The translations under genes and the position numbers were made by a program. Below, in pieces: positions 24,709 to 56,452 of a DNA stretch of 64,000 bases. Source of the stretch: Bosea sp. PAMC 26642 (lineage in GTDB: Bacteria; Pseudomonadota; Alphaproteobacteria; Rhizobiales; Beijerinckiaceae); NCBI RefSeq assembly GCF_001562255.1, contig NZ_CP014301.1, positions 3,038,001 through 3,102,000 of the forward strand. The letters run 5' to 3'. Positions within the stretch are counted from its first letter, which is position 1. Every line of letters begins with the position of its first letter. The notes beneath the pieces were generated by a model. The model saw only the letters and a list, made by a program, of their open reading frames with translations, did not search any database and was not told the DNA's origin.

Positions 24709-24710
24709 TC

Positions 24711-31338: not shown

Positions 31339-31352
31339 GACCCCCGTCCGCC

Positions 31353-32114: not shown

Positions 32115-32124
32115 CGTCGCGGCC

Positions 32125-33881: not shown

Positions 33882-35309
33882 TCAAGCAGATTTCGCCGCG
33901 AGCAGGACGCCGGGATTCATCAAGTTCAGAGGGTCGAAGAGCGACTTGACCCGCTGCATCAGTTCGTAGCGGAGCGGGTCCGCGAGACGGGACAGTTCCT
34001 CGGTCAGCTTGCGGCCGACGCCATGCTCGGCGCTGAAGGTGCCCTCGAAGACCGCCGCGGCATCATGGATCGCCCGCTCGACCTCCAGCGCGAAGGCATC
34101 GGCGTCGTTCAAGCTGTCCCAGAACGCACGCTGGAACATCAGGATGTAGTGCACATTGCCGTCGCCAAGATGGCAGACGACCTGTGTCACGGCCTGCGGG
34201 AAGCGCTTGGCGGCGACGGCGTCGGCAGAAGCAATGAAGGCGGCGGCATCAGATGTCCGCACGGCAACGTCGTGGACGATGCCGATGCCCTCTTTCTTGT
34301 TAGCCTCCGAAACCGAATGTCGGACATGCCAAAAATCGGCGGCCTGCTGCTCCGATGCGGCCACGACGGCATCTTCGATAGCGCTGGTTTCGAGGAAGGC
34401 GCCCAATACCTCTTCGAGGATGGCGTTCAGCGCCGTCGTGGTGTCCTCGCTGCCGAGTTCGATCAGCACCGACCAGGCCGGGATTTCGCCGAAGGGAAAG
34501 CGCACCCGCTCGACATGCCGGCGCACCAGCTCGAACTGCGAGGCGGATACCAATTCGAAGGCAAGGATGTAAGAGCCGGCGCGCTCCTGCAGCGCTGTCA
34601 GCAGCAAGACGGCAGCGGCCGGATCGGCGACAGAAACCCAGGCATGCGCCGTATTGGGGGTTTGTGGATGCAGCTTGAGCGCCGCGCCGGTGATGATCCC
34701 CAGCGTGCCTTCCGCGCCGATAAAGAGATGGCGCAGCATATAGCCCGTGTTGTCTTTGCGAAGGGCGGCCAGATCCGTGAGCACGCGCCCGTCCGCGAGC
34801 ACGACCTCGATCCCGGCGACGAGATCTCGCATTGGGCCGTAACGCACGACGCCCGTGCCACCGGCATTGGTCGAAATCAGGCCGCCTATCTGGGCGCTGC
34901 CCTCGCTGCCGAGATGCAGCGGAAACTGGCGCCCGGCATCCGATGCAGCCTCATGCAGGTCGCCGAGGACAACACCGGCATCGACCGTCGCGATGCCTGT
35001 AGCCCGATCGATCGCCCGAATGCGGTTCATCCGGCGCAGCGACAGCACAATGCCGATCCTGTCCAGCCGGTCGCTTTCGGGCACGGCCCCAAAGCACAGG
35101 CCGGTATTGCCGCCGACCGGAAAGACCGGCTGCTGCTGAGCGGCACACAGCGTCACCACCGCCGACACTTCCGACGTTGTCGCTGGAGAGACGACACACA
35201 GCGCCTTGCCGCGGCGGCGCTGACGCCAGTCGGTCAGCCAGGGTTCCATTTCACCGGGATCGGTGATCAGGCCCTTCTCTCCGACGATGGCGCGCAGCCG
35301 CTCGAGCAC
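33882..35309 (-). CDS. FAD-binding oxidase, GlcD / D-lactate or 2-hydroxyglutarate dehydrogenase-like
   Basis: A 475-residue flavoenzyme. The PCMH FAD-binding domain holds PVFPVGGNTGLCFGAVPES and SEGSAQIGGLISTNAGGTGV. The C-terminal FAD-oxidase domain contains HLGDGNVHYILM and FSAEHGVGRKLTEELSRL. The histidines in these two motifs bind metal or substrate in the D-2-hydroxyglutarate dehydrogenase group. It oxidises a D-2-hydroxy acid to a 2-oxo acid. It follows the DapA-family gene by 18 bp. Confidence 0.87.
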   Translation of the reverse strand: MLERLRAIVGEKGLITDPGEMEPWLTDWRQRRRGKALCVVSPATTSEVSAVVTLCAAQQQPVFPVGGNTGLCFGAVPESDRLDRIGIVLSLRRMNRIRAIDRATGIATVDAGVVLGDLHEAASDAGRQFPLHLGSEGSAQIGGLISTNAGGTGVVRYGPMRDLVAGIEVVLADGRVLTDLAALRKDNTGYMLRHLFIGAEGTLGIITGAALKLHPQTPNTAHAWVSVADPAAAVLLLTALQERAGSYILAFELVSASQFELVRRHVERVRFPFGEIPAWSVLIELGSEDTTTALNAILEEVLGAFLETSAIEDAVVAASEQQAADFWHVRHSVSEANKKEGIGIVHDVAVRTSDAAAFIASADAVAAKRFPQAVTQVVCHLGDGNVHYILMFQRAFWDSLNDADAFALEVERAIHDAAAVFEGTFSAEHGVGRKLTEELSRLADPLRYELMQRVKSLFDPLNLMNPGVLLAAKSA

Positions 35310-35327
35310 GACGGGGGTCCTTTCAGA

Positions 35328-36227
35328 TCAGGCGAGATCGATGGTTTTTGCGCCTTGCGCGGCGGCCTTGAGCTTCTCCAGCGTGCCGGGGCTCGGGCCG
35401 AGCAGCGGCAGGCGCACGCCCCCGACAGGCCTGCCGACAAGCTCCATATAGGCCTTGAGCGGCCCGGGATTGGTTTCGACATAGATCGAGTCGATCACGG
35501 GATCGATCCGGTCTTGCAGCTTCAAGGCTTCCCGGAGCTTGCCCTGGCGGGCAAGCTCGAAAATCTCAAGCCAGATTTTCGGGTAGATCGTCGCCGAAGC
35601 CAAGACGCCGCCCTTGGCGCCCAGCGCGATATGGGTGGCGAAGAGCGGCTCCTCACCACTTAGAATCGCGATCTTGTCGCCGGCGTATTTCACGGTACGG
35701 ATGAAGTCCGGCATGTCGTAGGACGAGTATTTCATGCCGATGATCGAGCCGTCCTCGGCCATTGCTTGCACTGTGTCGGCAAACGCCGCGACCGTGGTGC
35801 GGCGCGGAATCTGGTAGAGCATCACCGGAAGGTCGAGCGCGTCGCGGTAGCGCCGGAAATAAGCGCGCATGCCCTCCTGGGTTCCAGGTGCGTAGTAGGG
35901 CGTCACCGTCATCACTGCGGCAGCTCCGGCTTCGGCAAAGTCGAGGCCAGCCTCCAGTGCGTCCTCAAACCCGGTCGATAGCACCCCTGGGATGACCGGC
36001 TTGCCGGCGGCTGCCTCGACGCAGGCCGACACGATGCTGCGACGCTCGCTGCGCGAGAAGGCGGGATATTCTCCCGTGCCACCGATCGGCACGATGCCGG
36101 CCGCGCCGGCGGCGAGCTGAAAGCGGACGAGAGCCTGCAACCCCGTGATGTCGACGGCGCCGTCCTGCGTCAACGGCGTGACGATCGCGGTGTAGAGACC
36201 GCTCAATTGGTCCGGCGTGAGTGTCAT
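35328..36227 (-). CDS. DapA-family (dihydrodipicolinate synthase-like) lyase
   Basis: A 299-residue class I aldolase-fold protein. The pyruvate-binding motif is GGTGEYPAFS, the catalytic Tyr is in MLYQIPRRT and the Schiff-base Lys is in IIGMKYSSYD. Departures from the DapA consensus (GTTGES, GIKEAS) argue for a catabolic lyase or dehydratase rather than lysine synthesis; hydroxy-pyrroline carboxylate deaminases and keto-acid aldolases belong here. It is the first gene of the minus-strand cargo operon and divergent from the regulator. Confidence 0.85.
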   Translation of the reverse strand: MTLTPDQLSGLYTAIVTPLTQDGAVDITGLQALVRFQLAAGAAGIVPIGGTGEYPAFSRSERRSIVSACVEAAAGKPVIPGVLSTGFEDALEAGLDFAEAGAAAVMTVTPYYAPGTQEGMRAYFRRYRDALDLPVMLYQIPRRTTVAAFADTVQAMAEDGSIIGMKYSSYDMPDFIRTVKYAGDKIAILSGEEPLFATHIALGAKGGVLASATIYPKIWLEIFELARQGKLREALKLQDRIDPVIDSIYVETNPGPLKAYMELVGRPVGGVRLPLLGPSPGTLEKLKAAAQGAKTIDLA

Positions 36228-36386
36228 CCGAGTTCTCCCTTGGCGCGTAAAGCGCGGCGCTCCTGGCGAGCGACGGAAACCCGCCGGCCCTGCCAGAGTT
36301 TTGCCGGCACGTCATTGGAAGCCGAGCCTCATCCAGCATTAGTGCGCTGTCAACATCAAAATGGATAAATTGTCCGATCCGATAAT

Positions 36387-36406
36387 TCATGCATCATGAG
36401 GCATGA
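36387..36406. promoter_or_regulatory. Inverted repeat in the divergent promoter region
   Basis: TCATGC-ATCATGAG-GCATGA is a perfect 6 bp inverted repeat with an 8 bp spacer. It lies in the 247 bp gap between the cargo operon and its divergent regulator. It could be an operator for the regulator at 36475. Confidence 0.4.
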
Positions 36407-36474
36407 CGACTTCCCATCGGCGAAAGCCGTGTCTAAGTGTGTGGCGTGTCGCGCCGCGGAAGAGGGAGCAATTA

Positions 36475-37149
36475 ATGCCGGAGATTTCGCTTGCCGAGTT
36501 GGGCATGTCGGGCGATTCTACGGTCGCGTTCAGCGAGCGCGACCCGGTGCGGACGGTCGATGACCGCAATGGCGTCGATGCGCGCGGCGGCGTCGATATC
36601 GGCACGCGGCTGTTGAAGTTGCGTAAGAGTCGCCGCCTTACCTTGCAGGATGTCAGCGTGCTGACCGGCGTATCAGCTTCGGCGTTCTCCAAGATCGAGC
36701 GCAACGAGCTCTCGCCGACGATCTCGACCATGCAGCGGATTGCGCAGGGCCTGGGGATCGAATTGGTGACCCTGCTGACGGATCAAGACAACAGTCTCGG
36801 CAACGTCGGCGGGCGGCGGAGCATAAGCAGGGCTGGGGCCGGCAGCCGCCACACGACGGGCACCTGCAATAACGTTCTGCTGTGCGCGGATCTGAAGAAC
36901 AAGCGCGCGACGCCGATCCTGACCACGGTGACGGCGCGTTCTCCGGACGAATATCCGGCTTGGGCGAAGTCCGAGGCGGAAATCTTCGTTACGGTGCTTG
37001 ACGGCACGCTCATCGTTCACAGCCGCCTCTACGAGCCGCTCGAGCTCAACAAGGGCGACTCGGTCTATTACGATGCCACGACCGAGCACACGTGGACCTC
37101 GAAGGGGCCGACGGACGCCGCAGTGCTCTGGGTTCTCGTGGATATCTGA
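36475..37149 (+). CDS. XRE-cupin transcriptional regulator
   Basis: A 224-residue protein with an HTH at about 45-98 (GTRLLKLRKSRRLTLQDVSV, SASAFSKIERNELSPTISTM). The C-terminal cupin is at about 145-222 (EIFVTVLDGTLIVHSRLYEP, LELNKGDSVYYDATTEHTW). Such regulators sense a small metabolite in the cupin and control adjacent catabolic genes. ATG 36475 follows GAGGGAGCAATTA; an upstream in-frame codon lacks this. It is divergent from the nine-gene cargo operon, which is probably its target. Confidence 0.85.
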   Translation: MPEISLAELGMSGDSTVAFSERDPVRTVDDRNGVDARGGVDIGTRLLKLRKSRRLTLQDVSVLTGVSASAFSKIERNELSPTISTMQRIAQGLGIELVTLLTDQDNSLGNVGGRRSISRAGAGSRHTTGTCNNVLLCADLKNKRATPILTTVTARSPDEYPAWAKSEAEIFVTVLDGTLIVHSRLYEPLELNKGDSVYYDATTEHTWTSKGPTDAAVLWVLVDI

Positions 37150-37726
37150 CGGAGTCTGGACAGGGAGTAGATCAGTTAGTGACGGATTGCCCTCTCTTGC
37201 GTCATTCGGCGCTACCGAAATAGCGGCCCGTTGGCTGCCGCACTACTTAACGTGTGAAATCTAGTTACGCGCATGGAGGCGGGACAAGCGTTTCAGGCCG
37301 CTTCCGCAGGCGCCTCGAATGCCACGCCTTAGTTGCTCATTGCTTCATTCGCGAGGTCGCGAAGTCTCGATGAAGCTCGAAATGCTTCCCGTCGATCAGC
37401 GCGACAACGGCACGATGTGGTAGCTGCATCAGTCCCAAATCAGGTGATCCGACCAGACGTGATGCGGCAGCAAAAGCTGAGATGCTATCGAGGGAGCGAG
37501 TCCAGGACCCGGCAGCGCTCTACCTGGTCATGCTGAACCAGACCCAGAGCATATCGTTCCACCACAGCAGCAAGTGGCGCCCTAGGAGAGCGCCTTGGCA
37601 GCGGGTATGGCGAACCACATGCTAGGCCACGCGACCTCGTCCTGGCCGATCTTGCCGCGGGCTACATCACAATACACCGGCCGAACCCGACTACGAACTC
37701 CACGCCAAACAGCAGGACGACAGATC
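37150..37726. other. 577 bp without a recognisable gene
   Basis: No open frame here has coding-like composition or a recognisable family. It separates the regulator from the SDR gene. Some stretches look like broken coding DNA, but I could not assign them. Confidence 0.5.
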
Positions 37727-38479
37727 ATGACCGCTAGACCCATCGCCTTGGTAACCGGCGCCGCGCAAGGCATCGGCTATGCCTGCGCCGAAGCCATCGC
37801 CGAAAGCGGCGCACGTCTTGTGCTCGCCGACATCAATGCCGAGGGGGTCACGGCTGCTGCAGAGCGGCTGGGCGGCGGCGCCGTCGGGATGGTCTGTGAT
37901 ATGGCTGAACCCGAGCAGATCGCGGCGCTGTTTGCCCGGATTGCCGAGGAGATCGGTCCGATCTCGATTCTCGTCAACAATGCCGGCATCGCGTTGCCCG
38001 GCGATTTCCTGGAGACGTCTCTGGAGCAATTCCGCAAGGTCATCGACATCAATTTGATTGGTGTCTTCCTGGCGACCCAACACGCAGCGAAGGCGATGGT
38101 TGCAAATGGCACAAAGGGATCGATCGTCAACATGTCGTCGATCAACGCAGTTCTGGCGATCCCGACGATCGCCGCCTATTGCGCGTCCAAGGGCGGCGTG
38201 ATGCAGCTTACCAAGGCGACCTCGCTCGCGCTGGCGCCCCATGGCATCCGTGTAAACGCCGTCGGCCCCGGTTCGATCGACACGAGCATGCTGGCAGCCG
38301 TCAATGCCAACCCGAAGGCAATTGCCACCGTGATGTCGCGCACGCCGCTGCAACGCCTGGGCACAGCGCGCGAAATCGGCGACGTCGTCGCCTTTCTCGC
38401 CAGCGAGAAGGCCGCTTACATCACCGGCGAGACGATCTATGTCGATGGCGGCAGGGCCGCACTGAACTACACCTGTTGA
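37727..38479 (+). CDS. Short-chain dehydrogenase/reductase
   Basis: A 250-residue classical SDR. NAD(P) site VTGAAQGIGYA (9-19), NNAG motif, catalytic Ser in NMSSINAV and Tyr/Lys in AAYCASKGG, and the C-terminal YITGETIYVDGG. The acidic residue in LVLADINAEG favours NAD. It interconverts an alcohol and a ketone; substrate unknown. ATG 37727 follows AGGAC. It may belong with the metabolic cargo, although 577 bp separate it from the regulator. Confidence 0.88.
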   Translation: MTARPIALVTGAAQGIGYACAEAIAESGARLVLADINAEGVTAAAERLGGGAVGMVCDMAEPEQIAALFARIAEEIGPISILVNNAGIALPGDFLETSLEQFRKVIDINLIGVFLATQHAAKAMVANGTKGSIVNMSSINAVLAIPTIAAYCASKGGVMQLTKATSLALAPHGIRVNAVGPGSIDTSMLAAVNANPKAIATVMSRTPLQRLGTAREIGDVVAFLASEKAAYITGETIYVDGGRAALNYTC

Positions 38480-42833: not shown

Positions 42834-43319
42834 ATGTCTGCTCAAACCCTTCGACACACGACCGACGGGGATCGCGTAGAGACGATGGCGAAGCCATGGA
42901 CCGCAGCGCCCGTCAGGCTCGGGCCGCCCATGTTGCTTCCGGTTTACCTGCGCGCGGTGCGAGCCGGCTTCCCCTCGCCGGCGGATGATTACCAGGATCA
43001 GCCCATCGATTTGTCACGCGCCCTTATCCAGAACGCGCCAGCCACCTTCATCATGACTGTGGCCGGCGACAGCGCGATCGACGTCGGTATATTCGATGGT
43101 AGCCTCATCACCGTCGATCGCAGCCTGGTCCCGCGGGATGGCGATGTGGTGGTTGTGGATGTGAACGGCGAGCGCTCGATCAAGATATTCCGGATTGCCG
43201 GCGGGCGGTCGTCGCTTACCTTCGGGAACCGGCGCTATCCCGAGTACGAGCCAGGGGCTGATGCCGAGATCGATATTTTCGGCGTCGTGACGAACACGGT
43301 GCGGCGCTTCCGGCGATGA
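42834..43319 (+). CDS. umuD: UmuD-like translesion polymerase subunit (S24 peptidase)
   Basis: A 161-residue protein. Self-cleavage site [10 protein letters not shown] between Ala44 and Gly45, catalytic Ser80 ([10 protein letters not shown]) and Lys117 (RSIKIF). The spacings 44 to 80 and 80 to 117 are identical to E. coli UmuD (24, 60, 97). The N-terminus is about 20 residues longer. After RecA-promoted cleavage it forms Pol V with UmuC. The umuC start overlaps its stop by 4 bp, and a LexA box lies upstream. Confidence 0.92.
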
Positions 43320-44596
43320 GCCGGAGCTTCGCCCTCATCGACGGCAACAGCTTCTATTGCTCATGCGAGCGTGTGTTCGATCCCAAGCTCCGGCGCCGGC
43401 CCGTCATCGTCCTGTCGAACAACGACGGCTGCGCGGTCGCCAGGACTGCGGAGGCGAAGGCGCTCGGGATCAAGATGGGCGCGCCCATGTTTACGATTCG
43501 CGACCTCTGCAAGCGCGAGGGCGTGGTCGTGTTCTCGTCGAACTACACGCTCTATGGCGACATGAGCCGGCGGATGAACCGGGTCTACGAGGGGTTCGCT
43601 CCCGACATTGAGGTCTACTCGATCGACGAGAGCTTCCTCGATCTGACGCCCGTTGCGCCACAACATCGCGAAGAGCTCGGCCGCGACCTGCGAACGACCG
43701 TCTCGACCTGGACGGGCGTCCCGACCTGCGTTGGCATTGGGCCAACGAAGACGTTGGCCAAGCTCGCCAACAAGATCGCCAAGAGCACCCCGCAGCTCGG
43801 CGGTGTCTGCGACCTGACGAGCGACGAGGGCCGGCGCGAGTGGCTGCCTCTCGTCGCCCTGGAGGACGTATGGGGCATCGGGAGGGCCAGCCAGGCCAAG
43901 CTAAACGCCTTCGGCTGCAAGACCGCTGCAGACGTCGCCCGGCTCGACCCTAAGCTTGCCAGGAAGACGCTGACCGTCGTCGGCGAGCGGATCATCCATG
44001 AACTGCGAGGGCAGCCCTGCATCGACCTGGAGACCGTCGCGCCGACGCGGAAGGGTTGCGCGGTAACCCGGTCGTTCGCCGGCCGCGTCGAGTGTCTGGA
44101 CATGATGCAGGAGGCAATCGCCGCTCACGCGACCCGGCTGGGTGAGAAGCTTCGCCATCACGGCTTGGCGACGGATCATGTGACGGTGTTCTTCCACACC
44201 TCTCCGCACGATCGAGGGCCGGCGCGATCTGTCTCGACGACGGTCGATTTCCCCGAAGCCAGCAATGACACGCTGGTTCTGGTCCGGGCGGCGAAGTGGG
44301 GCGCCCGCCGCATTTGGAAAAGCGGCTATCGTTACGCCAAGGCCGGCCTGATGACGGTGGACATCGTGCCGCTCGAGGCTTCGCAGCGTGCGTTGATCGG
44401 TGCGCTCGATCGAGAGAAAAGCAGCCGCCTCATGAACGCCCTCGACGCCTGCAATGCTAGGCACGGCACGGGCGCTGTGTTCTCGGCCGCTGCCGGCATT
44501 GCCCGCCAGCGCAAGGCATGGATCACGAAGTTCGAGATGCGTTCGCCGCGATACACGACGCGGCTCGAGGAAGTGCCAGTCGTAGGGAGGGCGTGA
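43316..44596 (+). CDS. umuC: Translesion DNA polymerase V catalytic subunit UmuC
   Basis: A 426-residue Y-family polymerase. Catalytic acids are in [16 protein letters not shown] (N-terminal) and [11 protein letters not shown]. The YGDMSRRMN motif, helix-hairpin-helix ([16 protein letters not shown]) and little finger follow. The C-terminal DUF4113-like part ends near [10 protein letters not shown]. It copies damaged DNA with low fidelity. It is the second gene of the SOS-controlled operon and overlaps the next small gene by 1 bp. Confidence 0.94.
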
Positions 44597-45548: not shown

Positions 45549-46074
45549 ATGTGCAACCTCTACAGCATGACCAAGGGCCAGCAGGCGATCCGCGAACTTG
45601 CCAGGGCTATGCGCGACACCACCGGCAACCTGCCGCCGCTGCCGGGCATCTTCCCTGACTATCCCGCTCCGATCGTGCGCAATGCCTCTGACGGCGTCCG
45701 TGAGCTCGCCATGGTGCGATGGGGAATGCCGTCGTCGAAGCGGGCGATATACGACGCAGCAACCAAGCGCGCGGACAAGCTCCGGGCCAAAGGCAAGGCG
45801 GTAGACTTTGACGAGCTCCTTCGCATGGAGCCCGACGGCGGCACGACTAACGTCCGCAATACGACGTCGGCCCATTGGAAGCCCTGGCTCGGCATCGCGA
45901 ACCGCTGCGTCGTGCCGCTGACGAGCTTTTCGGAATTCGACCACGCGACGAAGCAGGATGTTTGGTTCGCACTCGACCAGAGCCGGCCGCTGGCGTTCTT
46001 CGCCGGGATCTGGACGCCTCAATGGACCGGCGTTCGTAAGATCAAGACGGGGATCGAGACGGCCGACCTCTTCG
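45549..46074 (+). pseudogene. 3'-truncated SOS response-associated peptidase (SRAP/YedK)
   Basis: Starts MCNLYS with the catalytic Cys2, then FPDYPAPIVRNASDG, MVRWGMPS, NVRNTTSAHW and RCVVPLTSFSEF, ending in the family's WTPQWTGVRKIKTGIETADL at about 46074. The remaining third, with the conserved HPKAMPVIL-type His motif, is missing in all three frames. The open frame runs on to 46406 with unrelated residues and overlaps the TIR gene. SRAP proteins form covalent links to abasic sites; the His is needed for release, so this copy is probably non-functional or altered. Confidence 0.7.
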
Positions 46075-46240
46075 TGCCTTCCGCCCCTATGCTCGCTCAG
46101 TCTGCGCTGCGCTTTGGCCGGCTCACAGGCGGGCGAGAAGGGCCCGCGTACCCGCAGCCATACTTGCCGCGGCCCAAACGAGCCTACTTCCTCTCGCCCG
46201 TTATCGGATCGTGGGGCATTCTGGCGACTTCTGCGTCCGT

Positions 46241-47155
46241 CTACCTACCCAACGTGCGGTGGGTGGCCGCTAAGAGATCGGCGTCTGTCGAGCCCAGCAG
46301 ATCACGGAAGATCGGATGGAGCGTCCTGCTGATCTCATGTGTGAGGTTCGTGATCTGGTGCGCAGCCGCGGCATCGACGATCAGCTTCCCTGCGTTTTCG
46401 AGCTGAACCAGTAGAGTCAGGATTTTTCGGCGGCGAGCCTCCAGATCGACGATAGTTTTTCCTGAAATCGCTAGAGCAGAAACAATATCGGCGCCGATAT
46501 CCGCGGCATGACCACGGCTCGCTGCTAATTTCCTATGCATGGCAGCGGCATCGACGGCGGTTGAGGCCGTGCTTGCTTGCGAACGTACGAGGGTCAGAAT
46601 TTCATCCATCGATTCTCTGATGACATCGAGAGGATTTGCAGGAACCGTCCCATCATTATGATTGATGATCTCTTCCTGCGCGCTGATCTCGTCAAACGCT
46701 TCCTTCAGCCCCGGCCAAGCCTGTTCGAACGATTTGATGAGCACTTTCTCTGGCAGAGACAAGTCACCCATTAGGTCATTGATAGTTTTGACCAGACGTA
46801 GAAAATCGTCATGCTCTGCTCTGGTCAAGTTGAACTGACTGAGCGGAGGGCGGATATCGGCTGGGCTTAAGCCGAGAAGGAGAGGCATCACGCAGCTATC
46901 TGCAACAGACTTAGAAAGCGCTCCGGCCTCAAACATGATCCAAGGCGCCTCGAGGTTTGAGCGCGTCATACAGATGATCCCTACGCCGGTACTTTCCAGA
47001 GCATCGGAAAGTTCAAGCTGCCAGCGGCCACCTTTGCGGAGATCTTCTACAGATATAAACGGTTTTACGGTCTGGATGATTACGGGAAGAGTGTCTGCCA
47101 AAAGTTCGGCAATTGCCTTACTGCTAGGTCCGGACCAGCTAATGAAAACTTTCAT
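46241..47155 (-). CDS. TIR domain protein
   Basis: A 304-residue protein. The N-terminal TIR domain (1-130) has KVFISWSGPSSKAIAELL, PFISVEDLRKGGRWQLELSD, ICMTRSNLEAPWIMFEAGAL. Glu76 in the W-x-x-x-E context is the position of the NAD-cleaving glutamate of enzymatic TIRs. The rest (130-304) is helical with no recognised domain (TLVRSQASTASTAVDAAAMH, LEARRRKILTLLVQLENAGK). It has no obvious partner gene. Its place in a phage-derived element makes an anti-phage or NADase role plausible but unproven. The 3' end overlaps the run-on of the broken SRAP frame. Confidence 0.8.
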   Translation of the reverse strand: MKVFISWSGPSSKAIAELLADTLPVIIQTVKPFISVEDLRKGGRWQLELSDALESTGVGIICMTRSNLEAPWIMFEAGALSKSVADSCVMPLLLGLSPADIRPPLSQFNLTRAEHDDFLRLVKTINDLMGDLSLPEKVLIKSFEQAWPGLKEAFDEISAQEEIINHNDGTVPANPLDVIRESMDEILTLVRSQASTASTAVDAAAMHRKLAASRGHAADIGADIVSALAISGKTIVDLEARRRKILTLLVQLENAGKLIVDAAAAHQITNLTHEISRTLHPIFRDLLGSTDADLLAATHRTLGR

Positions 47156-47343
47156 ATCCGCCTCTTCCGTCCGCTCAGCGCTGTGCCGCCGCCAACTTGC
47201 ATTTGAAGCCTTCCACAAATTTGATACACCCGCAGGCCATAACCAGATCGTCCTAAGGGGATGTGGAAAACCTGTTCAGACGAAAGACGAGAGCTATGCT
47301 CGGCGGCTCCATGTAGAAGAAACATAGCCTTGCTGTCGCGCCC

Positions 47344-48865: not shown

Positions 48866-49360
48866 TTAGGCTAATGGGTCGAGCTCCTCTCCCTCTTCGG
48901 CCTCTTCCTCCTCGACCACCACGCCGTCGATCTGCTTGCCCTCCTCCAGGGCGCGCTTCTCCTCGAGCGTGGCCACCAGGCGCTCGAGTTCTTCAACGGT
49001 GTACTGGCTCAGCAGCCGGTCGTCAGGGCCTGACGGCTTGGCCGCGGAGGAGAAGCCAGCGCGATCGAGCACGGCCTTGGCAGCGTCCACGCGCACGCGG
49101 CCGGCCACCTTTTCATCGAGCATGATCTCGCTCAGCACCTTGATGGCTTTCGGCGCCAGGTCGTCGGCCAGATACTTCGACAGCGACTGCCGCAGGACGA
49201 GGGAAAACTCCTGCGTCTTGGCGAAGTTATAGGTTCGAACCGAGTTGGGAAGGCCTGCTCGCTTTGAGGCTTCCTCCGGGCTGCAGCCCTTGGCGATCCA
49301 CCAGCAGAGCTCTCGCTGCGTTGCATCGTCGAGGCCGGTTCGGCTCGGTGGACGGGGCAT
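48866..49360 (-). CDS. Phage terminase small subunit-like protein
   Basis: A 164-residue protein. An N-terminal HTH-like part (DDATQRELCWWIAKGCSPEE, ASKRAGLPNS) is followed by an oligomerisation helix (DDLAPKAIKVLSEIMLDEKV, RVRVDAAKAVLDRAGF). The C-terminal QYTVEELERLVATLEEKRAL and acidic tail are typical of podovirus-type small terminases. It recognises packaging sites on DNA. No large terminase gene is in the element. A TTAACC palindrome precedes it. Confidence 0.65.
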   Translation of the reverse strand: MPRPPSRTGLDDATQRELCWWIAKGCSPEEASKRAGLPNSVRTYNFAKTQEFSLVLRQSLSKYLADDLAPKAIKVLSEIMLDEKVAGRVRVDAAKAVLDRAGFSSAAKPSGPDDRLLSQYTVEELERLVATLEEKRALEEGKQIDGVVVEEEEAEEGEELDPLA

Positions 49361-49384
49361 TTTTCGGATCTCCGGATTAGATAC

Positions 49385-49400
49385 TTAACCACAAGGTTAA
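49385..49400. promoter_or_regulatory. Palindrome upstream of the small-terminase-like gene
   Basis: TTAACC-ACAA-GGTTAA is a perfect 6 bp inverted repeat 25 bp upstream of the gene's start, in a locally AT-rich stretch. It could be an operator. Confidence 0.4.
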
Positions 49401-49530
49401 ATCATAACGGATCCGAAACGATTTGGCCAGAACTACCCTTGAGCCGGACCGTCCTAATGAGCTGAAAAGGGGTGTTTGGAGCGCGCGGCCGCTCCCGCGC
49501 TCACTCCAAAACTTTTGGATTCCGACGTGG

Positions 49531-49959
49531 TCAGGCCGACAACATATCGACCGTACGCTGATCCAGCGCCCCGCCGCCATAACGGTCGAGGGCGACACGG
49601 AATGCGCTTTGGGGGTTTCTGGAGGCCAGGGCGAAGAGCGTCATGCAGGAGATGAACTTCATATCGTCCGGCGAGCCGAATATCTGCTGGAGCGTCCGTC
49701 GCTCGATGGAAAGCACGATGTCCGTGCATGCGAAGAGCCGGCGGCCGAGCAGCGGGTGCGCGAGATAAGCATTGGCCTCGTCGAGATCCGCGATCCCGTA
49801 ACGCTGCGCCGTCGGGGACATGCCCAACCCGCGCAACTGCGGGAATACGAACCACATCCAATGGCTGCGCTTCTGGCCGGCGTGCAGTTCCGTCAGGGCG
49901 TCGGCGATGACATCAGCCTGCGCAGCGACGAAGCGGTTGAGATCGTATGAGACGGCCAT
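49531..49959 (-). CDS. DUF1810 family protein
   Basis: A 142-residue protein with the family sequences DLNRFVAAQADV, KRSHWMWFVFPQLRGLGMSP and HPLLGRRLFACTDIVL. DUF1810 proteins are widespread, calpastatin-like in name only, and of unknown function. ATG 49959. It is divergent from the DUF427 gene. Confidence 0.85.
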   Translation of the reverse strand: MAVSYDLNRFVAAQADVIADALTELHAGQKRSHWMWFVFPQLRGLGMSPTAQRYGIADLDEANAYLAHPLLGRRLFACTDIVLSIERRTLQQIFGSPDDMKFISCMTLFALASRNPQSAFRVALDRYGGGALDQRTVDMLSA

Positions 49960-50085
49960 GCCTGAGTAGACTGGCCGGGACGGCGTGCGGCTTCAAGGGG
50001 TCCGCTCGTCGATACAGAGACGGCCGAGGAGCTTTCCATCCCATGCGCCGGCCCTACCTACCTGGTGGATTGGAGGGCTTCCCCA

Positions 50086-50580
50086 ATGAACGTTACCCCC
50101 GAACCAACCGGGCCAGGCCAGGAGAGCGTCTGGTCATTCCCGCGGCCGGCAGTCGCAGAAGCGTGCTCACACCACATCTTGATCCGTCATCGCGGCGAGA
50201 CGATCGCGGAGGCCAGGGACTCGGTTCGCGTCATCGAGACGAGCCATCCGCCGACTTACTATCTCCCGCCCGACAGCATCGCCAACGCGCGGCTCATACC
50301 ATCGCCACATCGCTCCATCTGCGAATGGAAGGGGCAAGCCAGCTATGTCGATCTCGAGATCGGAAGCGAAATGCTTCGGCAGGTCGGCTGGCTGTATCCG
50401 TCGCCGACGCCCGCATTCCAGCTCCTCGCCAACTTCATCGCGTTCTATGCCGAGCCGTTCGATGAATGCCTGGTCGACGGCCGCCGAGTGACGCCGCAGC
50501 CTGGCGGCTTCTATGGCGGGTGGATCACGCCTCATGTGGCCGGACCATTCAAGGGGAGTCCAGGCAGCCGGTTCTGGTAG
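50086..50580 (+). CDS. DUF427 domain protein
   Basis: A 164-residue protein with the DUF427 fold sequences ILIRHRGETIAEARDSVRVI, YYLPPDSI, HRSICEWKGQASYVDLEI and the C-terminal GFYGGWITP. The family adopts a small beta fold of unknown biochemical role. ATG 50086 has GGAGGG 8 bp upstream; an upstream GTG is less likely. It converges on the element's replication module. Confidence 0.85.
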   Translation: MNVTPEPTGPGQESVWSFPRPAVAEACSHHILIRHRGETIAEARDSVRVIETSHPPTYYLPPDSIANARLIPSPHRSICEWKGQASYVDLEIGSEMLRQVGWLYPSPTPAFQLLANFIAFYAEPFDECLVDGRRVTPQPGGFYGGWITPHVAGPFKGSPGSRFW

Positions 50581-50583
50581 GAA

Positions 50584-51351
50584 TCAGAAGGTCTGTTGCC
50601 GAAGGCGTTGCTGCCGCTCGACCTCCATTGCGAGAACTTCAGCCATCGGAACGCCGAGCAGCCAGGCCGTTCGCTGGAGAGCCTGCCGCGTCTTGCGGAT
50701 TTGGCGCTGCTCCGCCTGTAGGAGGTCGCCGAGGCTGATGTCTTGCGGCACAGGCTGCCCCATCGCCACGGAGAGCTTCTGGATCCGGCGCAGGTACAAC
50801 GCGTCCAGGCGGAGCCTCTCCGCCTCTGCGGCCTTCTGACGGCGCCGTTCGCGAGCCAAGAATGCACCGGCGCGAGTGGGCTTGCCGGGCGCCTTGCACC
50901 TTTCGCAGCGGCGGCGGAGCTGGTCGCGCCGGATCGCAGCGCGCGTTGCCAACTGCTGGAAGGGAAGTTCGCAATCTTCGCACTTCATCGCCAGGCGGTA
51001 GTGGCGGATCCGAAAGCCCATATTCGTGGGCTCGAGGTCACTGCCACGTACGATGACCACCCGCCCGACTGACAGGAAACGCTCACCCTTGATGAAGTGA
51101 CGGGTACGATTCCGCAGGGCGCGCGACATGGTCTTTTGGGGTTTGGCTGGCGGGGCCTCACGACCAGGGTGAAGGGCTAAAGCATCCGGCTTGCTACCCG
51201 GAACCCCGAATGACGACGTTTCGGCCCCCTTAAGGGTGGCCGAAACTCTCGTCATTTCATTCGGAGAGTTCAAATCAATCTCGTCATTTCTCGTCATTCT
51301 CGTCATTGGGTCGCAACCCACTGAGCACGCTTGATTTTTTTGACGAGACAT
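50584..51351 (-). CDS. Unknown protein with zinc-ribbon-like Cys pairs, downstream of the RepA-like ATPase
   Basis: Up to 255 residues. The middle holds two CxxC pairs (MKCEDCELPF and RRRCERCKAPG, about 30 residues apart), consistent with one zinc site. A basic helical region (ERRRQKAAEAERLRLDALYL) follows, then a C-terminal part with QAEQRQIRKTRQALQRTAWL. The start is ambiguous: ATG 51351 overlaps the ATPase gene by 49 bp, while ATGs at 51306 and 51297 sit in a run of AATGACGAG repeats. It may be a DNA-binding accessory factor of replication; no family is recognised. Confidence 0.5.
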   Translation of the reverse strand: MSRQKNQACSVGCDPMTRMTRNDEIDLNSPNEMTRVSATLKGAETSSFGVPGSKPDALALHPGREAPPAKPQKTMSRALRNRTRHFIKGERFLSVGRVVIVRGSDLEPTNMGFRIRHYRLAMKCEDCELPFQQLATRAAIRRDQLRRRCERCKAPGKPTRAGAFLARERRRQKAAEAERLRLDALYLRRIQKLSVAMGQPVPQDISLGDLLQAEQRQIRKTRQALQRTAWLLGVPMAEVLAMEVERQQRLRQQTF

Positions 51352-52817
51352 TTCTCCAAAAGCGCCAGCCGATGCGTATCGAGAGTCTGCCTGGACCGCC
51401 CGCCAATTGGCGAAAGACGAGAGCCCACCTCGTCAAATTTGGCGTCCCATTCCTTCGATGACAGCACGAAAGCGTCGTCCCCTGGCCTATAGCGATCGCC
51501 GTACTTGTTGGCCGCCGCGGATTTAAACGCGGCCAACATGCGTTCCTGCGCTGGGGTAAGAACGTCGGCAAAATCGTCATCGCGCGACGCTTCCACCCGA
51601 GCTATTGCCGACGATACCGCGTTGCCGTCGGTGTCGAGCCCAAGCGCGACGCTTTCCAAATGAAAGCGGATCGGCTTGGGCTTTTCGCTGTCGCGCTGCT
51701 TGTCCACATGGATCGCCCCGTCCTTGATTTCTATCTCCGTATCCACCGCGCCTTTAAACCCCGACCATCCTCGCCCGCCACGGCTGGCATCTTTGCCGGT
51801 ATGGTGGATCAACATGATATGTGCGCCTAATGCCTCTCTGACCTCGTCGACGTTCTTCACAAGCGCGCCGCCATCAACCGAGCTGTTCTCGTCGCCGCCG
51901 GCGAGCACCCTGGAGAGCGTGTCGATCGCGAGGATGCTGCAGGGCTGGTCAAAGCGCTCCTCGGCCGCCCTGATGGTGGCGATCAGCCTTTTGCAATCGA
52001 CTTTATTTGACCTGAGGTCCGCGGAGACCGAGATCAGCACAAGCGGCAGATCCTCGGCGCAGCCATAGGTCACATCGTAAGCCTTGTACCGCTTGCGCAC
52101 GCCGCCGCCTCCTTCGGCCGCCAGGTGGACCGCGAGGCCTTTCGTGACCTTTCTGCCCGCCCATTCCTTGCCCGCGGCGATGTGGTAGAGCAGGTCTATG
52201 GTAACGAACGTCTTGCCGGTGCCAGGCGGCGCAAAAAGGATGCTCATAGCGCCTTGGTCGAGCAGCCCTCGGATGAGGGGTTTGGCTGACTGCGTGAGCG
52301 CCATGGCCGACGCCTCTGCTGCGCTCTGGTATTCGAACGGGTTGTTGCCTGACGTGACGGGCATGTCGTCATCGTTTTGAACAGCTTCCGATTCGGAAGT
52401 AGTTGCCAGCTCGACATGGTCGAACTCGACATCGGCGCTGCTCGAGCCGATCGGGCTGTGCCTGTACTGCGCCGCGTTATTGACGATGACGCCTAACCGT
52501 TCGTCTTCCCACGGCGGCTGACACTGGTCGTTCCACCAGCCGAGCATCAGGTCGAGCGTGTCGTCGGGGCTAAGCCCAAAGTCCATCACCTTAGCGGCGA
52601 CACGATACGCCGTGGCGTCGCCACCGTCGCCTTCGATCGATAATGGCGCGTGTTTCCGTAACCAGTCGTCGGCCCTTGCGATGGCGATGTCCTGGTCGAC
52701 GCCTTCGAGTGCCTCGACGCTATCGAACCTTACCGGTCTGGCACCAGCCACCACTGGCAAAAGCCACCCTGGCGCCGGAACGGCCATACGCGGTTCCGCC
52801 GCATCTTGAGGAACCAT
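51303..52817 (-). CDS. RepA-like AAA/RecA-fold ATPase (replicative helicase candidate)
   Basis: A 504-residue protein. The N-terminal 140 residues resemble the region after prim-pol in fused primase-helicases (RADDWLRKHAPLSIEG, MLGWWNDQCQPPWEDERLG). The ATPase core (about 190-400) has Walker A LFAPPGTGKTFVTI, Walker B CSILAIDTLSRVLAGGDE and HIMLIHHTGKDASRGGRGWS. These are the features of RepA/RSF1010-type hexameric helicases in phages and islands. Its ATG overlaps the prim-pol stop by one base, so the two form a split primase-helicase. Confidence 0.8.
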   Translation of the reverse strand: MVPQDAAEPRMAVPAPGWLLPVVAGARPVRFDSVEALEGVDQDIAIARADDWLRKHAPLSIEGDGGDATAYRVAAKVMDFGLSPDDTLDLMLGWWNDQCQPPWEDERLGVIVNNAAQYRHSPIGSSSADVEFDHVELATTSESEAVQNDDDMPVTSGNNPFEYQSAAEASAMALTQSAKPLIRGLLDQGAMSILFAPPGTGKTFVTIDLLYHIAAGKEWAGRKVTKGLAVHLAAEGGGGVRKRYKAYDVTYGCAEDLPLVLISVSADLRSNKVDCKRLIATIRAAEERFDQPCSILAIDTLSRVLAGGDENSSVDGGALVKNVDEVREALGAHIMLIHHTGKDASRGGRGWSGFKGAVDTEIEIKDGAIHVDKQRDSEKPKPIRFHLESVALGLDTDGNAVSSAIARVEASRDDDFADVLTPAQERMLAAFKSAAANKYGDRYRPGDDAFVLSSKEWDAKFDEVGSRLSPIGGRSRQTLDTHRLALLEKCLVKKIKRAQWVATQ

Positions 52818-53389
52818 CAGCTAGGCTCCCGAACATATTGACGGCCGTTGAGGACGGAGCCTGGCCCGACGACGTATCCGCCATCACCACGAATATCGAT
52901 ACCGATGCCGAGTTTCCCGGCCGAGTTCGGAATCCAGACGCTCGGATCAACTCTGAAGTATAGATGGCGGCCGCCGGACGGTGTTTTTACGGTAAAGGTG
53001 GGGGGCGCCGCGCCGTGTAGTGCTTCCAAGGCGGCCCAAGTGGCGCTCCCCTCCTTACCGTTCTTGTCATCAATATCGACGACAAATAGACCATTACCCG
53101 TCGCGATGCCGATATTGAAAGGCGCGGGGCTGTCTTCCATCGGCGGGAACCACATGTTCCTAATGGCAGCAGGGGAGCGGCTCGCTCTTGAGCTAAAATT
53201 CTGTATGGCTGGTGTCTTCGCGCCGAACTTTAGCGGAAACACAGGTAGCCCCCAGGAAGCCAAGAGCAATGATTGCTCATAGAGCGCCATCGCGACTGCA
53301 CTCTCATCGCTACCGCTCGATAAAAAGCTTTTACGATAGGGAATTATAGTTGCCGAAGAGGGCAAATCTGGTTTATCGTTCATCTGCAA
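52817..53389 (-). CDS. Prim-pol (bifunctional DNA primase/polymerase domain) protein
   Basis: A 190-residue protein formed by a single prim-pol domain: WGLPVFPLKFGAKTPAI, the catalytic acids in GLFVVDIDDKNGKEG, the His motif SGGRHLYFR and IDIRGDGGYVVGPGS. It synthesises primers for element replication. The gene is immediately followed by the RepA-like ATPase. In many islands both are one polypeptide; here they are separate. Confidence 0.85.
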   Translation of the reverse strand: MQMNDKPDLPSSATIIPYRKSFLSSGSDESAVAMALYEQSLLLASWGLPVFPLKFGAKTPAIQNFSSRASRSPAAIRNMWFPPMEDSPAPFNIGIATGNGLFVVDIDDKNGKEGSATWAALEALHGAAPPTFTVKTPSGGRHLYFRVDPSVWIPNSAGKLGIGIDIRGDGGYVVGPGSVLNGRQYVREPS

Positions 53390-53466
53390 AGCCTAAATTT
53401 TGCCCGGTGTCCGCGTGCTGGCGGCGCCGGGCATTTTTGCTCCGGCGGGCAGGTGACGGGGACGGA

Positions 53467-53679
53467 TCAGGCTGCTTCAAGCGCGTGGTCGGACGTCGAC
53501 CGGCGTTTACTGGCCGCTAGCCAAGCGCGCAGGTCCGCAATCTCATAGAGAACCCGCCGGCCAACTTTGCAGTAGCTCGGGCCACCGCCAGTCAGACGGA
53601 GTTTCTCAAGAGTGCTTTCGCCCATCGATACAAAGGCGGCGGCTGATCGCGTGTCGAGATAGTCGGAGTTGGTATTCAA
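53467..53679 (-). CDS. AlpA/excisionase-type HTH protein
   Basis: A 70-residue MerR-like winged HTH (LDTRSAAAFVSMGESTLEKL, GGGPSYCKVGRRVLYEIADL, RAWLAASKR). It is the usual small DNA-binding protein next to integrases, which directs excision or activates island genes. I chose the TTG at 53679, which has AGGAG exactly 7 bp upstream; the open frame extends to 53763 but its extra residues look unrelated. It lies upstream of the prim-pol gene on the same strand. Confidence 0.75.
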   Translation of the reverse strand: MNTNSDYLDTRSAAAFVSMGESTLEKLRLTGGGPSYCKVGRRVLYEIADLRAWLAASKRRSTSDHALEAA

Positions 53680-53772
53680 TGTCGCTCTCCTGTGAACGGG
53701 CGCCGGGAGACAGCGCGCATTCAAAGGAGACACCAGGCGGCAGCCGGAAATTGCCGACTTCAATTGGCAGGC

Positions 53773-54450
53773 TCACCGCGTCCGCGGGCGGCCCACTTTG
53801 AACCAGGTTCCAACATTCCACCGCTGCCTGTCTGCCTCTTCGACAGAAATGCACAATTCGGCAGCGCCGCAATCCGATCTGACGTCCCTTGAACAGGTGC
53901 AGCAGATAAGCGCAATCGATCCAATGGCTACATCGCGTCCCTCGGCGAAGAGACGACTTACGATAGGCTCACGGTCTTCAGACCCTATGCCTATGGCTAG
54001 CGCTTTGAGCAGATCAATTCGCGGATGGTCCGAGATTGGCTTTGGTTTCTGACGCATCGCCCGGGCGAGCCTATCGACATGCGCCTGCTCCAGATGACGC
54101 TTATGGGCATTGCCAGGCCCCGCGCTGGGCCAGAGCGTCCGAATGTCTGCGCTGCGAAGTTCGCCGCGCGAGCTTTCGCGGACATGTCGACATGCGATTG
54201 CCGCGTCGAGCGCTGCCACCGCGTCGACCGGCTCAACGATGAAACGTCCATATCGCGGGTAGGGCCGGTCAAGTGCCTCTGTCAGTGCCGTGAGTGCTCC
54301 GGCATCGATAGGAGGTAGCGCGACGCCCTCATGCTCCGCGCCGAATGGGCCGTCTCGCCCAACGGCGGCTTCGGTGCGATGCATAACCCAAGCAAGGGCC
54401 TGGTAGCGGGTCCACCAGGCCCGTCGTGCGATGTCACGAGAACCGCTCAC
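53773..54450 (-). CDS. Unknown protein between integrase and Xis-like gene
   Basis: A 225-residue protein (SRDIARRAWWTRYQALAWVM, YGRFIVEPVDAVAALDAAIA, HPRIDLLKALAIGIGSEDRE). A region with several Cys (ICCTCSRDVRSDCGAAELCI) is near the C-terminus. Its ATG overlaps the integrase stop by 4 bp, so it is cotranscribed. No known domain is recognised; a role in recombination or regulation is possible. Confidence 0.55.
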   Translation of the reverse strand: MSGSRDIARRAWWTRYQALAWVMHRTEAAVGRDGPFGAEHEGVALPPIDAGALTALTEALDRPYPRYGRFIVEPVDAVAALDAAIACRHVRESSRGELRSADIRTLWPSAGPGNAHKRHLEQAHVDRLARAMRQKPKPISDHPRIDLLKALAIGIGSEDREPIVSRLFAEGRDVAIGSIALICCTCSRDVRSDCGAAELCISVEEADRQRWNVGTWFKVGRPRTR

Positions 54451-55742
54451 GGCGACGCGCGTTGGGGGAATGGCACGACATGCGCGCCGTTGTTGCTCTC
54501 GCCAAGTGCATTTGCGACAGAAGCGCCAATGGAATTGGCAGCGCGCCGCAACGGGTCATTGTCCAAATGGGCGTAGCGCTGGGTCGTGCGCGCCTCGACG
54601 TGGCCTAAGAGCTTTCCAATGATTGGAAGCCCAAGACCTCCGCCCGCTCCGAATGATGCGAAGGTGTGGCGGATGTCGTGGATCCGAACGCCGGTCAGTC
54701 CCGCCCGCTTAGACACTGCTGTCCATGGGCGCTTCAAATCCGAACGCGGCTTCTCATCCTCCGCCCCCGCGCTCTCGCTAGCGATCACATATCGTCCGAC
54801 GCGCTTGAGCTTTGTCAGCACGGCCATCGCGGGGGCATTCAACACAACAGCCTTCTGGCCGGTCTTGGAATCGGGCAGCAGCAGGAGCCCGCGCTCGGCG
54901 TCAACATGCTGCCACTCAAGGTGCAGCACTTCTCTCAAACGGGCGCCGGTGAAAAGGAGGAGTCGGATAGCCGCTGCCGCGTGCTCGCCGATCACAGTCG
55001 CGCGTTGCTCCTTCGGCAGATGTTTAGCCTGCTTGTCTGGATCGACCTGCCATGGGATCCCGGAAGTCTCGGCCTCACGGATGGCATCGCCCAAGCGAGC
55101 GAGCTCGAGCGACGACAGGAAGCGTTCTCGCCGATGCTCAGGGTATTTCTCGACACCTTGAACCGGGTTTGTGCCTTGAGGTAGTAGGCCAGTGCTCGAT
55201 GCGAAGCTGAACATCGAGCCCACCACCGCCAGCATTCTATTGGCCTGGAATTTCGTGCGCTTCCACGAAAGATGCAGTCGAGCGATATCGGCCCGCGTCA
55301 CATCTTTTGCCTTAAAAGACCCAATCGCAGGCACGACAATACGGTTCAGGATGTCCGCGTAGTGCGCTTCAGTCCGGCTTTTGCGCTTGGCCGCGACATG
55401 GTCGCGTAGGAAAATAGCCGATACCTCTGCGATCGTCAGCGCCGCGCGGTGATCACTTTTGGCCTTGGCGGGATCCTCACCCACCTTTGCTCGTGACCGC
55501 AACTTGTCGGCGATTTTACGGGCTTCGTCCGGTGTGAACTCGTGAGCCGCCCCGATCGTCATGCGCTTCTTGGCTGCGCGGCGGCCACCGTCTCCTGCTC
55601 GGTACTCGAAAATCCAGGATTTGTTACCGGACGGGAATACCCGCAGTCCAAAGCCGCGGATTTCGCTATCGAAGACGACATAGCGAGTCGTGCGAGGTTC
55701 GGACGCATCGACCAGACGTTTGGTCAGTTTCACAGCTGTCAT
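54447..55742 (-). CDS. int: Tyrosine site-specific integrase
   Basis: A 431-residue P4-like phage integrase. An N-terminal DUF4102-type arm-binding domain (LTKRLVDASEPRTTRYVVFD, FGLRVFPSGNKSWIFEYR) is followed by a core-binding domain (about 100-195). The catalytic domain has Arg268 (TGARLRE), Lys293, His355-x-x-Arg358 (HDIRHTFAS), His381 (LLGH) and Tyr390 (TTQRYAHL), all intact. Met 55742 has GGAGGGCGAT upstream; the longer frame to 55844 is less likely. It lies beside attR and should catalyse integration at tRNA-Arg. Confidence 0.93.
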   Translation of the reverse strand: MTAVKLTKRLVDASEPRTTRYVVFDSEIRGFGLRVFPSGNKSWIFEYRAGDGGRRAAKKRMTIGAAHEFTPDEARKIADKLRSRAKVGEDPAKAKSDHRAALTIAEVSAIFLRDHVAAKRKSRTEAHYADILNRIVVPAIGSFKAKDVTRADIARLHLSWKRTKFQANRMLAVVGSMFSFASSTGLLPQGTNPVQGVEKYPEHRRERFLSSLELARLGDAIREAETSGIPWQVDPDKQAKHLPKEQRATVIGEHAAAAIRLLLFTGARLREVLHLEWQHVDAERGLLLLPDSKTGQKAVVLNAPAMAVLTKLKRVGRYVIASESAGAEDEKPRSDLKRPWTAVSKRAGLTGVRIHDIRHTFASFGAGGGLGLPIIGKLLGHVEARTTQRYAHLDNDPLRRAANSIGASVANALGESNNGAHVVPFPQRASP

Positions 55743-55899: not shown

Positions 55900-55945
55900 A
55901 CTACGAATCTGAGGGTCAGAGGTTCGAATCCTTTCGGGCGCGCCA
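55900..55945 (+). other. attR: 46 bp repeat of tRNA-Arg 3' end
   Basis: A perfect copy of 16571-16616, without the 5' half of the tRNA. The integrase gene begins 158 bp away. This marks the right end of the integrated element. Confidence 0.93.
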
Positions 55946-56195
55946 TTTTCTAAATAAAACATAGACTTACGACAAGAAGCCGGCAGGTCCTCCACTGCCG
56001 CCCGGAGAAATACCGGATAGGCACCGTTTTTGGTGCCCGGGCGATCAGCCTCTGAGCCCTGAGCCTTGCCGCGCAGGCGGCTTCCGGAACCGCGGGTCGG
56101 AGGTTCGAACCCCTTCACAAGGGCCGTCGCTCCGCTTCCAATCCAGCCTGGCGCTACTGCGTTTTGCACGTCGCCCCCCGTCGAGTGGCCCGCCA

Positions 56196-56452
56196 TCGCG
56201 CCCGGCAAGCCGATGCAGAAGCGCATCGAAAGCTGCAAGGGCCGCTTGGGTGACGAACTGCTGAACGAGACGCCCTTCTCGTTCCTGGCGCAGGCCCGAA
56301 CCGCATGGGCCAACTCGCGCACCGACGACAGCACCGCGCGCCCTTACTCCCAACTCGGCTGCCAGACGCCACGGCCTTCGCCACGGCTTCCGAACAGGCT
56401 CCAAAAGCGCTTGGTACGACTCAGCGCTGAATAAAACAGGGGGCAACCTCAC
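56196..56452 (+). pseudogene. Decayed 3' end of an IS3-family transposase
   Basis: The translation APGKPMQKRIESCKGRLGDE, then LLNETPFSFLAQARTAWANS and RPYSQLGCQTP matches the last part of the intact OrfB at 25715-26644 with many substitutions. The DNA ends GGGGGCAACCTCA, like the intact right terminus GGGGGCAACGTCA. The left two thirds are gone. It lies between attR and glpR, so it is outside the element. Confidence 0.85.

Follow-up and report, generated by a model that had tools for sequence, protein, structure and literature searches.

The stretch of 64,000 nt from the genome of Bosea sp. PAMC 26642 analyzed here (the window, whose numbering is used for all coordinates without a prefix) contains an island of 39.4 kb (16540-55945), bounded by an exact 46-bp repeat of the 3' part of a tRNA-Arg gene, which on balance we regard as probably a phage satellite that depends on a helper and descends from a podovirus-like temperate phage (a label that we take from the gene order, assuming T7-type phages as the standard of comparison). 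Like satellites in general, it is att-bounded with its own integrase, and genes for building a particle were not found in profile searches. More tentatively, we propose that it could represent a lineage of large satellites that customizes helper particles at the delivery end and not at the capsid, contributing its own small terminase subunit (TerS), its own ejection protein and mostly its own fibre, and borrowing the head, motor and tail tube. Such a satellite would control the DNA that is loaded, the route of entry and possibly the cells that are hit.

A family of headless islands

Three related islands in the genus are likewise delimited by att repeats, which are exact in all four Bosea islands and lie at three different tRNA genes. 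One of them, called par, is a second island in the same genome (29.5 kb, tRNA-Thr), with a TerS copy 96% identical to that in the window; another, from Boseaceae BT-24-1 (39.7 kb, tRNA-Thr), has the same layout and provides the sole match of the window virion protein in the genome-collection scan (88% identity); the third is located in the genus genome G575 (23.1 kb, tRNA-Gly). TerS, a primase-polymerase (prim-pol)/RepA and a large ejection-like virion protein, which in G575 is truncated at its N-terminus, are present in 4/4 islands, a tail fibre in 3/4 and a second ejection-like (gp15-like) protein in 2/4. The labels gp15-like, gp16-like (for the large virion protein), TTPA and TTPB follow gene position and what we take to be the T7-type order. 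We regard this headless island family as real. The integrases of par and BT-24-1 contain arm and catalytic domains, like the window integrase (Pfam). No empty tRNA-Thr site emerged: the tRNA side is conserved among the matches listed, and none of these reaches across to the integrase side.

A sequence-only reading had described a satellite-like end module at 48866-55742, resembling phage-inducible chromosomal islands (PICIs), and had envisaged islands of 10-15 kb. The module is real but makes up no more than the integrase end of a larger element: a compact PICI of 10-15 kb at this position is ruled out, as the tRNA repeats enclose 39.4 kb, and the Bosea islands span 23-40 kb (versus 46.1 kb for a full prophage of the related type). 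The suggestion of a fusion with a podovirus remnant came close to the truth, with fibre and ejection-like genes lying inside the same pair of att sites, at the opposite end.

The family is sporadic. The TerS profile was positive in 4/67 genomes of the genus, namely this genome, BT-24-1, G575 and G531, the last being a head-bearing phage (for BT-24-1, the coordinates of G561 and G528 coincide). TerS-positive genomes numbered 2/149 in the family scan and, at E <= 1e-12, 2/397 in the order scan (this genome and G238, in which the match lies on a different contig from the G238 phage). The window virion protein identified 2/149 genomes in the family scan (this genome and G115) and its profile 5/397 in the order scan: this genome, G255 and G238 (head-bearing phages), G152 and G400 (at a contig end). 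A larger family scan gave 8/397 positives, strong only for this genome, BT-24-1 and G575, the other five ranging from 9e-4 to 6e-7.

Head genes are found in related phages and not in the islands

The complete form of such an element is exemplified by the G115 prophage (46.1 kb between 48-bp repeats), for which PHROG matches were obtained for the large terminase subunit (TerL, 1.3e-86), portal (8e-11), capsid (2.7e-112) and TerS (2.5e-10), and which also has a fibre and a fused prim-pol/RepA. Its genes run in the order TerL, portal, scaffold, capsid, two tail-tube-like genes, two genes of ~210 aa, a 466-aa gene and a 996-aa gene. Among head-bearing phages, TerS homologues are present in G115 and G531, fibre homologues in G115, G255 and G531, and homologues of the virion protein in G115, G255, G238, L021 and L022. 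Prophages of the G115/G255/G238 type (unclassified) are the nearest head-bearing relatives: in G115, TerS, the fibre N-terminus, the gp15-/gp16-like proteins and prim-pol/RepA are homologous to those of the islands. Such phages also carry TerL, portal, scaffold and capsid together with tail-tube-like genes, none of which was found in the islands.

This negative rests on a six-frame search of five att-bounded elements (window, par, BT-24-1, G575 and an island of another family in G152) with TerL, portal, scaffold, capsid, TTPA-, TTPB-, 211- and 209-like profiles built from 2-6 head-bearing phages each; none gave a match at E <= 0.1, within a coverage comprising relatives of the six phages used. 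The seven of these eight models that could be checked with G531 held out (all but 209) each recovered the G531 copy (6e-23 to 3e-155). The same search recovered the gp16-like gene in 5/5 elements, TerS in 4/5 (not G152), the fibre in 3/5 (not par, not G152) and the gp15-like gene in 3/5 (not the window, not G575). Pfam searches of the large frames of the window, of ten frames of par and BT-24-1 (integrases included), and of five BT-24-1, three G575 and two G152 frames revealed no terminase or portal. The small frames without assignment are too short for TerL or portal; they could hold other, wholly unrelated head genes. In this respect the sequence-only reading was right: the element, which is integrated at a tRNA gene, is headless, lacking in both kinds of search the large terminase, portal and capsid (and, in the profile search, the tail-tube genes) expected of a complete temperate podovirus.

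At E <= 1e-60, the family TerL was detected in 1/67 genus genomes (G531) and in 0/3 island genomes; therefore any helper of that family would be an incoming phage and not a resident one. A resident helper in this genome was considered and rejected: there are only two TerL matches (24-31% identity), and the 40 kb surrounding each contains no other match to the phage gene set. These solitary genes (G000:C1:2691880-2693115 and 4677845-4679047) stand among cellular genes and, by eye, adjoin ParB-like genes.

The G152 headless island occupies a tRNA-Arg(cct) gene (G152:C1:773622-811276) and encodes, besides gp15- and gp16-like proteins, a PD-T4-6-like kinase and a DUF3987 protein; the profile search found no terS in it.

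TerS, virion protein and fibre

The product of 48866-49360 does not reach the Pfam threshold (PF20901, 0.0026), yet sequence comparison identifies it as a genuine small terminase: it matches PHROG terS (1.4e-4) and, as a single sequence, the solved small terminase 7joq (E-value 4e-5), a match that improves to 1.1e-8 with a three-row profile (window, par, G115). A protein search with the TerS profile reported 156 proteins at E <= 0.001, and many of the 120 listed bear Terminase_2 (PF03592). The BT-24-1 and G575 copies match PHROG terS families weakly (2e-4), and three Pseudomonas phage records match TerS weakly in the phage-record search (29-36%); TerS searches of viral contigs and of plasmids returned no relative. 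The terminase relationship proposed from sequence inspection is therefore upheld. Homologues do stand in full-size phages, but these are distant (TerS 32-36% identical to G115, virion protein 23-29%), whereas the closest relatives of known context (TerS 93-96%, virion protein 86-94%) sit in headless islands.

In full phages the homologue of the virion protein closes the structural block, and by this position the island protein is likely an ejection protein. PHROG reported nothing for TTPB and the gp15- and gp16-like proteins, and for TTPA only a weak tail match in G255 (0.003); Pfam reported nothing for the gp15- and gp16-like proteins of par, and the virion profile found one chance-level match (0.06) among solved structures. 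A three-row virion alignment matched no genome contigs but did match four viral contigs, each of which has head genes; two of the four correspond to the G115 phage.

When the fibres are compared in 50-residue bins, the window and BT-24-1 proteins share 75 of the first 100 residues and 13 of the following 50; the counts for bins one and two with the pair of G115 fibres are 18 and 18, and 17 and 13, per 50 residues. The first ~100 residues are thus conserved (dN/dS 0.31, window/BT-24-1) and the remainder variable, a combination of anchor and tip that, we infer, would be expected of a fibre docking on a common tail.

Selection on headless elements and the decay alternative

The chief rival to a satellite is that the islands are decaying prophages, integrated podovirus-like elements that shed the genes for head and tail tube and acquired cargo, with TerS, fibre and virion protein as leftovers whose constraint stems from ancestral full phages; we judge this unlikely, although it deserves serious consideration. 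Ratios of nonsynonymous to synonymous divergence (dN/dS, Nei-Gojobori method) are low among the three closest islands: 0.03-0.06 for terS and 0.08-0.11 for the virion protein (over 21730-24708), at dS of 0.43-0.82. Between par and BT-24-1, they amount to 0.05 for terS, 0.11 for the gp16-like, 0.18 for the gp15-like and 0.08 for the integrase gene, and these two islands share a headless junction in which a 137-aa gene stands with the gp15-like and gp16-like genes. The 137-aa gene (dN/dS 0.14, dS near saturation) has no match in any phage region compared; since par and BT-24-1 share this junction, the constraint acted on headless elements, after head loss. Head loss looks old and the retained genes appear to be in use, which suggests that in the sister islands selection has maintained them; a parasite using the particles of another phage would be expected to show this. 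Of the points against simple decay this carries the most weight, and to it can be added the conserved integrases with exact att repeats, and the occurrence of four Bosea islands at three tRNA genes versus one full family prophage in 67 genomes.

On the side of decay, the homologous genes stand in phage order within full prophages, losses vary among copies, and in G575 the RepA, terS, fibre and truncated virion genes are adjacent, as if the segment from TerL to gp15 had been excised from a phage. A tree of gp16-like proteins (22 rows, from a protein search in which only the 8000 best candidates were scored) places the four Bosea islands in one group (100/99) with P0003-P0013, 11 proteins whose genomic context is unknown, and leaves the five head-bearing phages, G152 and P0014 outside it; we consider this grouping suggestive only. 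P0001 and P0002 (the par and BT-24-1 proteins) and P0015 were omitted, as were G400, with its match at a contig end, and G531, which gave no gp16-like match. The G152 island groups with the G115 phage and not with the Bosea islands (99/97, long branches), therefore head loss probably happened more than once.

A resident defence or metabolic island, whose TerS and virion protein would have some other use for host or island (e.g. in blocking packaging or entry of incoming phages) and no particle transfer takes place, seems improbable: defence genes (TIR-TM; Gabija in BT-24-1), the lack of a resident family helper and the common tRNA-Thr of par and BT-24-1, whose shared genes (terS, virion, gp15-like, integrase) have dS of 0.67-0.93 versus 0.55 for a flanking helicase (dN/dS 0.19), speak for it, but integrase, att and replication genes are kept and vary between islands as mobile modules do, the distribution is sporadic (4/67, one a head-bearing phage), and a retained fibre would be hard to explain if no particles were involved.

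Several observations weigh against the satellite interpretation. The shared tRNA-Thr island genes are no less diverged than the flank, therefore long residence is possible. The gene set is uneven: the window lacks a gp15-like gene and its SRAP gene is altered, par lacks a fibre, and in G575 the virion protein is reduced to roughly its last 610 residues. The frame taken by eye for the G575 integrase (L047:14938-16398) matches no Pfam or PHROG family. Retention of terS and the gp16-like gene is partly a matter of ascertainment, the islands having been found by searching with those genes. Exchange of genes with full phages after the split of par and BT-24-1 would weaken the selection argument. 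On the gp16-like tree, headless elements show no significant clustering (the label takes 4 changes against a shuffled mean of 4.6, and 160/500 shuffles reach as few), and long branches are flagged (among them G575, 1.75), so that the join is possibly false. Viral contigs searched with TerS, the window virion protein and a nine-row virion alignment contained no close relative, and phage records searched with the virion proteins none. The islands are larger than four known satellite families, for which the available text of PMC10803314 gives averages of 10-18 kb. Finally, no helper, excision, induction, particle or transfer was observed.

Proposed life cycle

If the island is a satellite, the integrase would excise it and prim-pol/RepA would replicate the circle. 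A related infecting phage would supply TerL, portal, capsid and tail tube, and the island TerS would steer the helper motor onto island DNA. The island ejection protein, plus the fibre where it is kept, would join the particle, so that island DNA could be delivered and then inserted by the integrase into a tRNA gene. In return, the host would gain the defence and catabolic cargo.

Comparison with known satellites

In many PICIs, though not all, a terS gene serves redirected packaging, and capsid-forming PICIs (cf-PICIs) have their own portal and terminases. Tycheposons and VEIMEs are cargo islands integrated at tRNA genes with a tyrosine recombinase; the Bosea islands resemble them in both features. 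PICI core genes, in the accessible part of PMC11773190, are an integrase, an AlpA-like regulator and a primase/helicase, and EcCIMP1 has no terS. The window island has the integrase, an AlpA-like helix-turn-helix (HTH) protein (HTH_17/excisionase-like and not Pfam AlpA), primase/helicase and terS, through which it might redirect packaging, and no head genes. Nonetheless, PICI membership is not supported: the island measures 39.4 kb from att to att versus an average of 9.5 kb for PICIs in the same excerpt of PMC10803314, and it carries a fibre and an ejection-type virion protein, whereas phage satellites are said, in the text available from PMC13376191, to have no structural genes. cf-PICIs have their own capsid genes (PMC11389934, in part); in the window island TerL, portal and capsid are undetectable. 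cf-PICIs and the Streptomyces Mulch/Flayer satellites (PMC10690885, in part) carry particle genes of their own, as do the Bosea islands, but the former make capsids or encode encapsidation machinery, whereas the latter retain selector, fibre and ejection protein and no capsid. I55, as described in the available portion of PMC12595487, is a larger-than-usual satellite with defence cargo, like the Bosea islands, with a jumbo phage as helper; the same portion states that ordinary capsids limit satellites to ~20 kb. As satellites go, the window island is most likely a variant with an unusual retained gene set and not a PICI. No description of a headless satellite set of TerS, fibre and ejection protein was found in the searches made, which covered openly licensed papers.

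Gene content and cargo

Features of the island are collected in Table 1. All seven minus-strand frames of the integrase end that had been noted (54447, 53773, 53467, 52817, 51303, 50584 and 48866) are in place, with the integrase, prim-pol and RepA identities confirmed. The AlpA/Xis assignment stands as AlpA/Xis-like, from the HTH_17 and excisionase/regulator matches; there was no Pfam AlpA match at E <= 0.05. Of two intervening genes, DUF1810 is real and the frame 50167-50535 is doubtful, because it overlaps the plus-strand gene 50065-50580, which has a conserved counterpart in par. Prim-pol and RepA are fused into one protein in par, BT-24-1, G575 and G115.

Table 1. Features of the 39.4-kb island in window coordinates
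Feature	Position	Strand	Evidence and remarks
tRNA-Arg(acg)	16540-16616	+	attL side; ARAGORN and Rfam; tRNA positions 32-77 are the repeated part
117-aa conserved end gene, unknown	16781-17134	-	79-80% aa in par and BT-24-1 (tblastn); dN/dS 0.21-0.24
84-aa HTH-like regulator (by eye)	17224-17478	+	96% aa par, 42% BT-24-1; dN/dS 0.03 window/par
225-aa conserved gene, unknown	17583-18260	-	94% aa par, 39% BT-24-1
Tail fibre, 533 aa	18541-20142	+	PHROG_892 tail fibre 1.2e-8; hidden Markov model (HMM) of three phage fibres 3.2e-31
410-aa protein	20139-21371	+	Motif scan: short collagen-like stretch, repeated GG-DG motifs
Virion protein, ~1,110 aa	21376-24708	+	HMM of 5 head-bearing phages 1.5e-95; start 21376 picked by eye
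98-aa gene after virion protein	24705-25001	+	Common to three closest islands; 85% par, 62% BT-24-1; dN/dS 0.24-0.35
IS3-type transposase (rve)	25409-26644	+	Pfam
Catabolic cargo	26863-38479	.	Pfam: dehydrogenases, DAO, OCD, ABC transporter, SBP, DHDPS, cupin regulator, SDR
umuD-umuC	42834-44596	+	Peptidase_S24 and IMS; 87-94% aa par; umuC dN/dS 0.06 window/par
SRAP peptidase gene	45549-46406	+	Relatives matched over residues 1-175 only; 3' part different
TIR-TM defence-like protein, cargo	46241-47218	-	PADLOC TIR-TM 1.1e-62
terS (predicted small terminase subunit)	48866-49360	-	93-96% aa among window/par/BT-24-1
DUF1810 gene	49531-49959	-	PF08837 9.7e-55; 75-77% aa par and BT-24-1
171-aa conserved gene	50065-50580	+	90% aa par; dN/dS 0.17; replaces minus-strand reading 50167-50535
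255-aa unknown gene after RepA	50584-51351	-	81% aa BT-24-1; dN/dS 0.28 (window/BT-24-1); no family
RepA-like AAA_25 ATPase, 504 aa	51303-52817	-	AAA_25 5.8e-37; 66% aa BT-24-1; dN/dS 0.24 (window/BT-24-1)
Prim-pol, 190 aa	52817-53389	-	PF09250 1.7e-35; stop overlaps RepA start (TGATG)
AlpA/Xis-like HTH_17 protein	53467-53763	-	HTH_17 2.4e-6; PHROG_66 excisionase/regulator 5.1e-6
225-aa unknown gene	53773-54447	-	No family; no match in the other 15 regions compared, window island only among these
Tyrosine integrase	54447-55742	-	PF00589 1.8e-19; Arm-DNA-bind_3 1.5e-17; 55% aa to G152 island integrase
attR	55900-55945	+	Exact 46-bp copy of tRNA-Arg 3' part; ~160 bp past integrase

The 225-aa gene at the tRNA end matched no Pfam, PHROG or PADLOC family; by eye it resembles the arm/core-binding part of an integrase, with no catalytic domain. 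No family was assigned in library scans to the 410-aa protein, which is possibly a fibre tip. The catabolic cargo, for which blastn found no match to par, includes a minus-strand block (26863-36227) of 2-hydroxyacid and FMN dehydrogenases, DAO, an ornithine cyclodeaminase-like protein, an ABC importer and DHDPS, a set of families resembling those for use of amino acids or opines. Outside attR, the segment 56077-56126 is a 3' tRNA-like fragment (64% identity to the 3' half of tRNA-Arg), possibly the scar of an earlier insertion, and 56179-56370 is an IS3 transposase fragment, 81-86% identical to 26314-26508 of the IS3 element of the island.

The BT-24-1 island contains a complete Gabija pair (L036:13604-17156; PADLOC, GajA 777 bits, GajB 799 bits), which adjoins an Mrr-like nuclease; farther along, there are a weak MACPF match and a neprosin gene. 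By eye, the 23-kb G575 island encodes a LuxI/LuxR-like pair (G575:C33:142341-143791), possible quorum-sensing cargo.

Implications

Known satellites seize the capsid size, the capsid or the packaging of the helper; if the interpretation of the Bosea islands as satellites acting at the delivery end is true, delivery would be the hijacked step. Satellites of 23-40 kb would then exceed the ~20 kb limit of ordinary capsids, alongside the jumbo-phage satellite I55 as presented in the available part of PMC12595487, and the alphaproteobacteria would gain a carrier of defence and catabolic genes.

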